From Pseudomonas sp. AL03 (GTDB lineage: Bacteria > Pseudomonadota > Gammaproteobacteria > Pseudomonadales > Pseudomonadaceae): a stretch of 64,000 nt of DNA. The notes below the pieces were generated by a model. That model saw only the letters and a program-made list of their open reading frames with translations, did not search any database and was not told the DNA's origin. Each line of letters starts with the position of its first letter. Position 1 is the stretch's first letter. Made by a program: the position numbers and the translations under genes. The DNA lies in assembly GCF_029960815.1 (NCBI RefSeq), contig NZ_JASBRE010000008.1:1-64000 (forward strand), given 5' to 3'. Below are positions 34,072-37,491 of this stretch, one piece after another.

Positions 34072-34201
34072 AGGTAAAACCTCGGCGGCTGAATCTTATC
34101 GTTGGGGCCTGAGCTTAGTGGCCCTTTGTTACGCAACGCAACCATTGCCTTGCGTCCTGACTGGCGCGACACTTGCGCGCCAATCAAGGAAGGAATGTGC
34201 T

Positions 34202-35110
34202 GTGAACCCCGTCGATACTCTGCGTTTGCTGTCGCTTGCCGCCATTTGGGGCGCGAGTTTTCTGTTCATGCGCATCATCGCCCCGGTGATTGGCACAATC
34301 CCCACTGCCTTTTTCCGCGTGTCGATTGCCGCGGTCGGCCTGTTGGTGATCCTCGGGCTGATGCGCATCAGCTGGGATTTCAAAGGCAAGCTCAAAACCG
34401 TGATGCTGCTCGGGGTGATCAACTCAGGGATTCCGGCGACCCTGTATTCGGTCGCCGCGCAAGTGCTGCCGGCCGGTTACTCGGCCATCTTCAACGCCAC
34501 CACGCCGCTGATGGGTGTGCTGATCGGCGGTCTGTTCTTTCATGAAAGGCTCACCGCCGCCAAGCTTGGCGGGGTGTTTCTCGGGCTGTTTGGCGTTGGA
34601 GTCCTAACGCGTGCGGGTCCGGTGGCGTTCGACATGGAACTGCTGACGGGCGCCCTCGCCTGCCTGCTCGCCACGACCTGCTACGGTTTCGCCGGGTTCC
34701 TCGCGCGCCGTTGGCTTGATCAGGCCGGTGGTCTCGACAGCCGACTGTCGGCGTTGGGCAGCATGCTGGGCGCGACGTTGTTTCTGTTGCCACTGTTTGG
34801 TTACAGCGTGATCAGCCAGCCACCGGCGAGCTGGGGCGGCTGGAGTGTCTGGTTGTCATTGCTCGGGTTGGGGCTGGTGTGCACCGCGTTTGCGTACATT
34901 ATTTACTTCCGTTTGCTCAGCTCGGTTGGCCCGGTGAAGTCGATGACCGTGACCTTCATGATCCCGCCGTTCGGAGTGTTGTGGGGGGCGTTGTTGCTGG
35001 ATGAGCCGCTGTCGATGGCGCACATTTATGGCGGGGTGTTGATCGCGGCGGCGTTGTGGTTGGTGTTGAAGCCGGCGGTGGTGAAGAAGAGTGAAGTGGT
35101 TGCCCGGTAA
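34202..35110 (+). CDS. EamA-domain DMT superfamily transporter
   Basis: A 302-residue inner-membrane protein with ten hydrophobic segments in two EamA repeats: LAAIWGASFLFMRIIAPVIG at the start, ATTPLMGVLIGGLFFHERLT at the end of repeat one, and TFMIPPFGVLWGALLLDEPLS at the end of repeat two. The Glu-Arg and Asp-Glu-Pro words are typical of the family. GTG 34202 is chosen with AAGGA upstream; the longer frame back to 34043 overlaps the aceK start. Substrate unknown; probably an exporter. It diverges from aceK and ends at a palindromic repeat. Confidence 0.85.
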   Translation: MNPVDTLRLLSLAAIWGASFLFMRIIAPVIGTIPTAFFRVSIAAVGLLVILGLMRISWDFKGKLKTVMLLGVINSGIPATLYSVAAQVLPAGYSAIFNATTPLMGVLIGGLFFHERLTAAKLGGVFLGLFGVGVLTRAGPVAFDMELLTGALACLLATTCYGFAGFLARRWLDQAGGLDSRLSALGSMLGATLFLLPLFGYSVISQPPASWGGWSVWLSLLGLGLVCTAFAYIIYFRLLSSVGPVKSMTVTFMIPPFGVLWGALLLDEPLSMAHIYGGVLIAAALWLVLKPAVVKKSEVVAR

Positions 35111-35214: not shown

Positions 35215-36078
35215 TCAGGCTGATTGACGGAAAACGAACACCAGACCGACGATGATCAGCAGCATGCCGAGCATGCTCAATGCCGCCAGCCGGTTGCCGA
35301 AAATCAGGTAGTCCATGACCGCCGTCACCGCTGGCACCAGGTAAAACAGACTGGTGACATTGACCAGGTTGCCCCGGGCGATCAAGCGATACAGCAGCAA
35401 GGTCGCCAGCACCGACACGACCAATCCCATCCACAACACCGGCACGATGAAACCGCTGCCGTGTTCGAAATGAAAAGGTTGGAATGGCACGAAGATCCCG
35501 CAGAGCAACAGTCCCGCCAGGTATTGCACTGGCAGTGTGCCGAGGGGATTTTCGGTGATGCGTTTCTGCATGATCGAACCGAACGTCATGCTCGCCAGCG
35601 CCAGCAATCCGAAGAGCATGCCGGCCAACGACATGCCGGCCAGACCGATGCCCTGATAGACCACCATGATCAACCCCGCCAGCCCCAGCGCCAGGCCGAA
35701 CATCCGGCTCCAGGAACGCTGCCGCTCCATCAACACCACCGTGAGGATCGGCTGCACGCCCATGATCGTCGCCATGACCCCCGGCGTGACGTTCAGGTCC
35801 AGGGCCAGCAGATAGAAAATCTGGTAGGCCCCCAGCAACACCACGCCCGTGGCCATTGCATACACCATCGGCTTGCCACCCTTGGGCAGTTTGAGCTTGA
35901 GCAACGGCACCAGCAGCACCAGACCGCACAGCGCGATGGCGAAACGAAACAGCAAAAAGGCAAACGGTGACGCGTGGGCCAGGCCCCATTTGGAGAAGAT
36001 CGCCCCGCTGCTCCACAGCAAAACGAACAGGCTCGTGGACGCCGCCGCGAGCGCGGATTTTTTCGAAAGGACAAACAT
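35215..36078 (-). CDS. EamA-domain DMT superfamily transporter
   Basis: A 287-residue inner-membrane protein with about ten hydrophobic segments and two EamA repeats: LLWSSGAIFSKWGLAHASPF in the first segment, GVQPILTVVLMERQ closing repeat one, and FYLVPAVTAVMDYLIFGNRL closing repeat two. ATG 36078 has AGGTGG 5-6 nt upstream, better than the ATG 9 nt earlier. Unlike the neighbouring transporter it has a long leader that contains a 54-codon ORF (36355-36191), suggesting translation-linked control. Substrate unknown. Confidence 0.85.
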   Translation of the reverse strand: MFVLSKKSALAAASTSLFVLLWSSGAIFSKWGLAHASPFAFLLFRFAIALCGLVLLVPLLKLKLPKGGKPMVYAMATGVVLLGAYQIFYLLALDLNVTPGVMATIMGVQPILTVVLMERQRSWSRMFGLALGLAGLIMVVYQGIGLAGMSLAGMLFGLLALASMTFGSIMQKRITENPLGTLPVQYLAGLLLCGIFVPFQPFHFEHGSGFIVPVLWMGLVVSVLATLLLYRLIARGNLVNVTSLFYLVPAVTAVMDYLIFGNRLAALSMLGMLLIIVGLVFVFRQSA

Positions 36079-36190
36079 GAATACCACCTGTAGTCAGGCA
36101 AAAAGCCAACTCAGCCGAAGCTGAAATTCAGTAGTTATTTTCAAGCGGGCGCTTTTTCAGACGGGCATGGGAACAGCAGAAAAAAGCTGA

Positions 36191-36355
36191 TCAGCCCGAA
36201 AAGCCAACGCCCGGCGGTGATACGACTGCGCACACCGGCGTGCTACTGACAGGTGGGGGGTAATGACTGATCTGCGCAGGCTGCTGATTCCCGCACGGCA
36301 CGACGCCAGCGTTGACCGCTGAATCGACTACCGCGTTGAAGAGGGAAGCAGGCAT
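36191..36355 (-). CDS. candidate leader peptide ORF upstream of the DMT transporter
   Basis: A 54-codon ORF (ATG to TGA) on the same strand as, and 112 nt upstream of, the transporter gene; it is too short for most gene finders. The product starts MPASLFNAVVDSAV, contains HYPPPVSSTP and ends VVSPPGVGFSG. The Pro-Pro-Pro and Pro-Pro-Gly runs are poor substrates for the ribosome and fit a stalling leader. No convincing ribosome-binding site was seen. In the -1 frame an open run starts near the end of the ORF and reads GLISFFLLFPCPSEKAPA before its own stop. The role is inference from position and composition. Confidence 0.45.
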   Translation of the reverse strand: MPASLFNAVVDSAVNAGVVPCGNQQPAQISHYPPPVSSTPVCAVVSPPGVGFSG

Positions 36356-36507
36356 GGGCTGATCTTTTTTGATGGGTTGGAAGGTGGGTTAGTAAACCAC
36401 CGAGCGCCGACTATAACCAGCGCGTGACAGGTATTGCAATGGCTTCGCAGGTAAACAAAACAACAGTGGTTTACACCGCCGCCCTCACCACAAGACCGGG
36501 CTAACTT

Positions 36508-36552: not shown

Positions 36553-37491
36553 TCAACCAAACAACCAATACCCCAACAGCGCCGACACCACCAACGCCAA
36601 CACCGGTCGCAGCACACGGTAGGCCTTGGGATTACGACGCTTCCACTGTTTGATCACACCACTGAACTTGTCGCTGGAATTCTTGCTCCAGGCATAAACC
36701 TGGTTAATTCCGCCAACACGTTCATCACCCAGGTTCTGCGGCGCAGTGGCGCGGCCCAGGAATCCGCTGATCCAGCGGTTGATGCGGGTCATGAGGCGGT
36801 TGCTCAGCGGTCGTTCGATGTCGCAGAACAGGATGAGCCGAGTCTTGTCGGTTTCGTTCTTGACCCAATGCACGTAGGTTTCGTCGAACATCACGTCTTC
36901 GCCATCACGCCAAGCGTAGACCTGACCGTCGACGAAGATCCGGCAATCGTCGGAATTCGGTGTCGACAACCCCAGGTGATAACGCAGGGAACCGGCAAAC
37001 GGATCACGGTGCGGGTTGAGGTGACTGCCACCGGGTAGTAACGCGAACATGGCGCCTTTGACGTTGGGAATGCTGCTGACCAGTGCCACGGTTTTCGGGC
37101 ACAGGGCTTGCGCCGATGGCAGCGGTTTGTCGTACCACTTGAGGTAGAAGCGCTTCCAGCCTTTCTTGAAAAACGAACCAAATCCGGCGTCGTTGTTTTT
37201 TTCGGCGGCGCGGATGTAACCCTCGTCGAACAGGTGCATCGCTTCGTCGCGGATAACTTCCCAGTTGTCCTTGAGCACGTCCAGCTCCGGGAACTTGCTG
37301 CGGTCCAGATAGGGTTTGGAGGGCACGCTTGAGAACAGGTACATCAAGGCGTTATAGGGCGCAAACAATGCCGAATGGTTGACGAACTGACGCAAGACCG
37401 GCAAACGCGCCTTGCCGCGTAAATGCACATAGAGAGTGCTGCCGAGGAACAGCAGCAACAGCGACGCCTTCGCGGCAATGGAAAAGGTCAT
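36553..37491 (-). CDS. lpxO: lipid A Asp/Asn-type beta-hydroxylase (LpxO-like)
   Basis: A 312-residue Fe(II)/2-oxoglutarate dioxygenase. It begins with a membrane anchor (about residues 4-22) followed by VHLRGKARLPVLRQFVNHSA, the typical LpxO N-terminus. The catalytic core has PGGSHLNPHRDPF with His161 and Asp163, the second His208 in DETYVHWV, and Arg218 for 2-oxoglutarate. LpxO adds a hydroxyl to the secondary acyl chain of lipid A at the inner membrane. A second hydrophobic segment sits at the extreme C-terminus. ATG 37491 has AAGGAG 6 nt upstream, so the longer frame is rejected. Asp/Asn hydroxylases of other substrate type are the alternative. Confidence 0.85.
   Translation of the reverse strand: MTFSIAAKASLLLLFLGSTLYVHLRGKARLPVLRQFVNHSALFAPYNALMYLFSSVPSKPYLDRSKFPELDVLKDNWEVIRDEAMHLFDEGYIRAAEKNNDAGFGSFFKKGWKRFYLKWYDKPLPSAQALCPKTVALVSSIPNVKGAMFALLPGGSHLNPHRDPFAGSLRYHLGLSTPNSDDCRIFVDGQVYAWRDGEDVMFDETYVHWVKNETDKTRLILFCDIERPLSNRLMTRINRWISGFLGRATAPQNLGDERVGGINQVYAWSKNSSDKFSGVIKQWKRRNPKAYRVLRPVLALVVSALLGYWLFG

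Follow-up and report, generated by a model that had tools for sequence, protein, structure and literature searches.

An exporter gene of the EamA/DMT family is probably switched on by a ribosome that pauses on the prolines of a short leader open reading frame (ORF) upstream of it. The leader ORF (36191..36355, 54 codons, MPASLFNAVVDSAVNAGVVPCGNQQPAQISHYPPPVSSTPVCAVVSPPGVGFSG) and the exporter gene (35215..36078, 287 amino acids) are both located on the minus strand of the window, by which we mean the whole 64,000-nt stretch of DNA that was analysed. The frame of the leader was supported by alignment, a sequence profile, and parsimony. Comparisons between leaders and folding predictions suggest a translational attenuator that is opened by ribosome pausing on polyproline, an explanation to which we give slightly better than even odds.

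The first-pass annotation described a Pro-rich ORF of 54 codons with PPP and PPG upstream of a DMT exporter. This ORF is present as described, at 36355-36191, and it does precede the exporter gene; its location on the minus strand was left unstated. The motifs are YPPPV (codons 32-36) and PPG (codons 47-49). The exporter starts with an ATG at 36078, which is 277 nt away from the leader start codon, and its product matched Pfam EamA in two stretches (E 7.1e-22; 78.6 bits versus a gathering score of 28.2). The score of the exporter against TIGR00950 (65.3 bits) was under the cut-off of 230.2, and a PDB sequence search with the transporter as the query gave no relative at E 0.001. The leader ORF matched no Pfam or NCBIfam family. 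A sigma-70-type promoter-like site (TTGCAA, 18 nt, TATAGT) is present at 36410..36439 on the minus strand, and we infer a transcription start at approximately 36403, approximately 48 nt before the leader ATG. The scan for promoter-like sites found 1 site versus 1.2 expected in shuffles, and a TATAGT or TATATT block was aligned among the leaders listed (26 of 66). The surroundings include a second EamA/DMT transporter gene (34169-35107, plus strand), which adjoins the first and is convergent with it. An LpxO-like lipid A hydroxylase gene (36556-37491, minus strand; 405.7 bits, below the curated 500) is located just upstream, and a terminator-like hairpin (36529-36517) lies between this gene and the leader promoter.

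Leader DNA was matched in 66 of 194 related genomes, and a homologue of the transporter was adjacent in all 66. The ORF is full-length in 65 of these leaders; in the exception, L031, TAG stops it two codons early, and the codon alignment therefore comprises the other 65. All 65 start with ATG and have 53-55 codons, with indels solely in multiples of three, and 17.2% of their residues are Pro. On a tree of the transporter genes of 64 of these leaders (L058, whose transporter is broken, was left out), parsimony required 148, 165, and 288 changes at positions 1, 2, and 3, respectively, of the codons of the ORF. The same parsimony gave 146, 160, and 173 for the non-coding stretch past the leader stop (94 columns, 64 leaders). 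Codon constraint was strongest from alignment column 23 onward, and the first 22 codons were weakly constrained (63, 87, and 107). The leader ORF is clearly conserved and translated-looking, and is held by selection at the amino-acid level. The first-pass annotation had proposed a comparison of synonymous and non-synonymous change, and had named an unconserved frame in related genomes as the outcome that would count against the ORF. Position 3 is in excess in the ORF, this excess is absent from the non-coding leader, and the frame is kept as amino acids, the opposite of that outcome.

The polyproline motifs are also selected as amino acids. Alignment columns Pro34-36, 49, and 50, which are window residues 33-35, 47, and 48, carried 36 synonymous changes versus 1 non-synonymous change among 64 leaders, in a tally that omits L058 (Ser for the first Pro) and the Pro codon lost from L046. 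Under the assumption that two thirds of changes are non-synonymous, this result would have a probability of 1.7e-16, a rough figure that ignores mutation bias. The first motif, YPPP (Tyr32 and Pro33-35; 36251..36262, minus strand), is the proposed stall site, based on its conservation and on published stallers; the portion of PMC4176338 on E. coli reporters places YPPP among the strong stallers. The second, Pro47-Pro48-Gly49 (36209..36217, minus strand), is supported by the alignment and parsimony. Tyr precedes the prolines in all 65 aligned leaders, and the two clusters begin at residues 33 and 47 in 50 of them. The PPP run is shorter or broken up in L046, L058, L186, L188, L189, and many of 19 diverged leaders described below. 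The second cluster has longer runs (PPP to PPPPPP) in many diverged relatives and is absent in some (L189, L194, L211, and L213).

A hydrophobic -1 frame at the end of the ORF had also been described. It is present in the window, where it reads GLISFFLLFPCPSEKAPA. However, comparison of the 65 leaders shows nothing beyond chance in this frame. Beyond the stop of the 0 frame, it continues for anywhere between 3 and 53 residues, and its letters diverge after the first few. The mean hydropathy of the -1 extension is still 0.95, 28 of the 65 exceed 1.0, and the window has a value of 0.98, but many of the extensions are short, and their initial LIS or LIG overlaps the conserved end of the ORF. Since the -1 frame has neither a conserved length nor a conserved sequence, the idea of a frameshift is unsupported, and we rejected both programmed -1 frameshifting and a conserved product of the -1 frame. 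The C-run of PPP is likewise unconserved (the first Pro codon is CCC in 37, CCA in 15, and CCT in 11 of 65 leaders). The proposal that leader translation controls the exporter is supported by the comparison; the frameshift part is not.

Prediction and conservation suggest that the exporter Shine-Dalgarno (SD) sequence is sequestered by pairing with the leader. The putative anti-SD, CCACCUGU (36249..36256, minus strand), consists of codons Pro34 and Pro35 and the start of Val36; when read with the next base, CCACCUGU(C), it spans codons Pro34-Pro35-Val36. It is complementary to the exporter SD region, ACAGGUGG (36084..36091, minus strand). RNAalifold proposed the anti-SD:SD helix unprompted on 63 leaders, and the minimum-energy fold of the window leader includes it (z -2.93). 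A test of the named structure, for which 47 of the 66 leaders were used, showed pairing in 92.8% of cells and double changes at 13 pairs versus 6.5 in shuffles, with none of 500 shuffles as high. When the structure was slid by 1-3 columns, pairing fell to 26-50%, a control that favours a structure drawn from the same sequences.

The anti-SD:SD helix itself (helix 2) was paired in 96.5% of cells and is nearly invariant. The anti-SD arm is extended by CAGUAG (36243..36248, minus strand), which pairs with CUACUG (36129..36134, minus strand; alifold, window fold, and structure test), and the helix therefore runs on across an intervening hairpin. These arms form helices 3 and 4 (97.9 and 94.0% of cells paired, respectively). 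Covariation sits mostly in hairpins, all on the minus strand. Helix 1, within the ORF (U-CAGCG / CGCUG-G, 36306..36322), was paired in 91.5% of cells, with both-side changes at 3 of 6 pairs. Helix 6, right after the leader stop (CAGC / GCUG, 36174..36189), was paired in 97.2%, and 11 cells were changed on both sides at one pair. Helix 7, before the SD (UCAGC-UUCG-GCUGA, 36111..36124), was paired in 89.8%, with both-side changes at 3 of 5 pairs.

The five core anti-SD positions were paired in 60-62 of 62 distinct arm pairs (94 of 97 leaders; L187, whose genome has no transporter, was not entered). Since this core hardly varies, covariation there is weak. At the flanks, pairing at offsets -1, +6, +8, and +5 was reached by 40, 79, 115, and 316 of 2000 shuffles, respectively, and pairing at offsets -4 and +7 was below that of the shuffles. 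The length of the helix was rejected as proof of an anti-SD, the best match of shuffled leaders being equally long. Silent changes were fewest in CCUGUCAGU, with 1, 2, and 2 third-position changes at columns 36, 37, and 38, versus 13, 5, and 10 at Pro columns 34, 49, and 50, which are outside the anti-SD. This stretch, CCUGUCAGU, is held fixed at its silent positions as well. The third base of column 35, inside the anti-SD, had 7 changes, most of which create a U-U mismatch, and the silent constraint therefore falls short of the whole arm. A one-base indel in the C-run of PPP was observed in L178, L179, L180, and L181 (approximately locus 1590-1610; three gains and one loss). A gain moves the leader stop inside the anti-SD arm, and the sequence downstream is mostly retained. 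The indels of these four genomes could be real or homopolymer errors.

Among 27 free leaders, the SD had an unpaired probability of at most 0.01 in 14 and up to 0.36 in the rest. Folding calculations in which the footprint of a ribosome was blocked along the leader gave partial support for opening; by the criterion applied, the SD opened preferentially around PPPV in just 12 of 26 leaders, and it was never more than 64% unpaired. L005 and L030 remained unchanged, and the SD became less open in L053; L194 was left out of this summary because a wrong-frame ORF had been used. The first-pass annotation suggested that leaders of this type can switch on exporters by stalling ribosomes in response to a drug or an amino acid. 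The conserved frame and the location of the anti-SD exactly under the PPPV codons agree with control of the exporter by the state of leader translation; a drug or an amino acid may be the signal.

We propose that the attenuator functions as follows. If the leader is passed quickly, with sufficient EF-P and prolyl-tRNA, the anti-SD would refold onto the SD and the exporter would be off. A pause at YPPP (codons 32-36) would place the ribosome footprint over the anti-SD arm, which would free the SD and allow the exporter to be made. A ribosome at the second cluster alone would leave the arm free; a pause there, approximately 14 codons on, would put the next ribosome in the queue over that arm, a placement that is a matter of arithmetic. 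Most simply, the signal would be how well the cell can translate polyproline, whether this is set by EF-P, by prolyl-tRNA, or by inhibitors of this step, and export would ease whatever condition had slowed the ribosome. A shortage of EF-P or prolyl-tRNA is the simplest signal because the distant leaders have the prolines in common but differ in the rest of the peptide.

Profile A1, which was built from 18 leaders, matched 245 of 398 genomes of the genus, and the transporter was found at E <=1e-80 in 261. Leader and transporter were both found in 242 genomes, the leader alone in 3, the transporter alone in 19, and neither in 134. Further analyses used loci other than L067-L096 and other than the 80 named loci L097-L176. 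Among the leader-only genomes, G437 has a leader remnant with a lost frame, the transporter match of G085 spans just half of the transporter, and that of G459 is under the cut-off. L187 (approximately locus 1500-1700) is a decayed leader with a lost frame and a different gene next to it, and no transporter was found there at E 1e-80. Each of the 19 transporter-only genomes has, at the leader position, an ORF that contains one or more Pro-Pro pairs; these ORFs have diverged beyond the reach of the profile and are mostly of the form ...PPV-x-PP...PPPP-A. In 17 of these 19 leaders, a pattern search located the anti-SD site where a Pro-Val or Ser-Val pair is encoded, and it did not find the site at the proline codons of L199 and L212. 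The leaders of L199 and L212 are much shorter (MRFVVVASVAPPPGR and MPANAQSIVVVQCAVVAIAAVAPPASGR). The background count matters because the diverged ORFs were chosen by their prolines; 1 of 44 greedily called window genes had a leader-placed PPP ORF, and none of the 44 had two separated clusters. This list of 44 genes apparently lacks the studied gene, which is covered by a longer wrong-frame ORF.

The conservation of QQP..ISHY in the main clade leaves room for a ligand-specific arrest peptide. According to this explanation, QQPxQISHYPPPVS senses a drug or metabolite, the exporter substrate, in the exit tunnel, and polyproline is merely the place of arrest. The residues before PPP are held as amino acids in the main clade (Gln25 in 65 of 65, Ile29 in 62 of 65, and Tyr32 in 65 of 65 leaders), with synonymous changes at Ser30, His31, and Tyr32, and ermC and leader-controlled ABC transporters are described in a section of PMC5418344. 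However, the diverged leaders retain the prolines and mostly the anti-SD, not the residues before PPP. We consider a ligand-specific arrest to be unlikely.

The leader's own SD is weak, with a median duplex energy of -0.9 kcal/mol versus -8.8 kcal/mol for the exporter SD region with the 16S tail (65 leaders), and leader translation may therefore be infrequent. A weak leader SD and a strong exporter SD that is predicted to be hidden would also be expected from plain translational coupling, in which the structure would be opened by leader translation at an unvarying rate, the exporter would be kept at a low, constant level, and nothing would be sensed. This coupling would account for the conserved anti-SD and frame. 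However, it does not account for the amino-acid constraint on two separate polyproline clusters or for the invariant Tyr before the prolines, and we regard it as quite unlikely.

Transcription attenuation by the leader, intrinsic or Rho-dependent, has precedents in mgtP and mgtL of Salmonella, which are similarly Pro-rich leader ORFs before a transporter gene in the parts of PMC6460261 and PMC3641672 that describe them. Consecutive Pro codons of mgtP confer a response to EF-P, and Pro codons confer a response to proline limitation (passages of PMC6460261 and PMC3641672). As described there, mgtP and mgtL act on transcription elongation, whereas a conserved structure that is predicted to hide the SD is present here. 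The window has a terminator-like hairpin at 36125-36110. However, terminator-like sites numbered 5 versus 3.8 expected, and the U-run is not adjacent to this hairpin and is lost in relatives, such as L010 and L054. We saw no conserved intrinsic terminator in the leader and rejected attenuation by an intrinsic terminator because the U-run is unconserved; transcription attenuation in general is improbable. A riboswitch-like RNA with a conserved ligand-binding fold and an incidental ORF would fit the 5' half, which folds well and covaries (helix 1, 47 leaders), but it is hardly credible given the clear codon periodicity and amino-acid constraint, and the window had no Rfam 15 match at the gathering score; a further search gave just three matches, all far below their gathering scores.

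By analogy, the polyproline-paused attenuator that we favour may work like CutF/cutO and erm-type attenuation, with a Pro-rich sensor like that of mgtP/mgtL. In ermC-type attenuation, arrest is drug-dependent, and the leader precedes a resistance gene and encodes a different peptide. Two features of erm-type attenuators were found here, a conserved upstream leader ORF and a predicted sequestration of the SD. A stalled leader ribosome frees a sequestered ribosome-binding site in that system, as it would here (from a section of PMC5418344). Passages of PMC9973294 describe CutF/cutO of Rhodobacter capsulatus, in which a small upstream Pro-rich protein controls an SD-shielding stem-loop of the next gene; this leader similarly has a C-terminal Pro-rich stalling-like motif and a putative SD-shielding structure. 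However, the same passages describe CutF as carrying a Sec signal and binding copper at a CxxxC site, and as preceding a copper oxidase, whereas the present leader precedes an exporter. Moreover, the Pro codons themselves would be the anti-SD here, unlike in CutF. A CxxxC motif was found in 0 of 65 main-clade leaders and in 2 of 6 diverged leaders examined. L200 and L205 have CPALC (CxxxC) directly before the first polyproline, which is reminiscent of a CutF-like metal site. In a crude check for Sec signals, based on basic residues and hydropathy, K or R was present within residues 1-8 of 14 of the 65 leaders, and the best 19-residue hydropathy window had a median of 1.31 (range 0.95-2.19; 65 leaders). 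A CutF-like protein was rejected based on the lack of CxxxC in the 65 leaders and of any Pfam family in a scan of 7 leaders.

The description of mgtQ of Salmonella in part of PMC8092293 is also similar, in that the structure occluding the ribosome-binding site of a transporter gene is opened by a short upstream ORF. In contrast to the present leader, mgtQ has 8 codons and acidic ribosome-destabilising residues, and its Pro codon is not required (same part of PMC8092293). PA5471.1, which functions in mexXY induction in P. aeruginosa, is another Pseudomonas leader peptide that links interference with the ribosome to an exporter, as outlined in PMC3884212; compared by that description, it differs in acting via the anti-repressor ArmZ. 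The loss of EF-P also raises mexXY, as stated in an excerpt of PMC13159725. We found no paper describing this leader in a literature search by title and abstract start, the coverage of which lies outside most subscription journals and preprints.

Beyond the genus, profile A1 matched only the window's own genome in a class-wide draw of 369 genomes, and the transporter was found only in the window itself in even class-wide draws (1 of 369 and 1 of 198). Distant homologues were obtained from a plasmid/replicon collection, with 49-55% identity to the window protein or via the Klebsiella protein. We examined 13 named homologue records among those listed, and chose the transporter start ourselves where it was unannotated. 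Eight have a leader ORF with Pro-Pro, namely, Cupriavidus (2), Caballeronia (1 of 2 loci), Klebsiella, Chimaeribacter, Pantoea dispersa (2), and Tistrella. Among the 13, no leader was found at the second Caballeronia locus or in Proteus, Pantoea vagans, and Pantoea agglomerans, and one case was uncertain and left uncounted (Pseudomonas silvicola, L224; transporter match in two pieces). A gene for a divergent LysR-type regulator is located beside the leaderless exporter in P. vagans and P. agglomerans (L221 and L222), unlike which P. dispersa (L218 and L223) has a leader.

The leaders of Klebsiella and Chimaeribacter have six consecutive prolines. In Cupriavidus, GGUCCUGUCG/CGACAGGACC pair at Pro-Val codons, with none of 300 shuffled ORFs as good, and in Caballeronia, CACCUGUCG/CGACAGGUG pair at Pro-Val codons, with 2 of 300 shuffles as good. 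The best match was elsewhere in the ORF in C. metallidurans (8 of 300) and Chimaeribacter (14 of 300). That of Klebsiella, at the last Pro codons, was not significant (33 of 300), and the shuffle test gave no anti-SD match in P. dispersa or Tistrella. The distant relatives appear to support the lock more clearly than the covariation at its flanks. We tentatively suggest, at well under even odds, that this is an old polyproline-sensing switch common to Gamma- and Betaproteobacteria, and perhaps Alphaproteobacteria, in which the stall-site proline codons would themselves be the anti-SD, so that one sequence would be both sensor and lock, and the second polyproline cluster would park a queued ribosome on this lock. 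The case for Alphaproteobacteria rests on one locus, in Tistrella, where the prolines are present and the anti-SD was not found.

If this explanation is correct, an exporter common in pseudomonads and some other proteobacteria would be controlled by how well ribosomes translate runs of prolines, and any failure of EF-P, prolyl-tRNA, or proline elongation would induce the exporters of this DMT subfamily. The system would represent a clean case of a stall peptide and an anti-SD that share the same codons. The gene would then report naturally on stress in polyproline translation and would offer a ready in vivo sensor of EF-P activity. Moreover, the substrate may be tied to that stress, which would provide a clue to what an EamA/DMT exporter transports.
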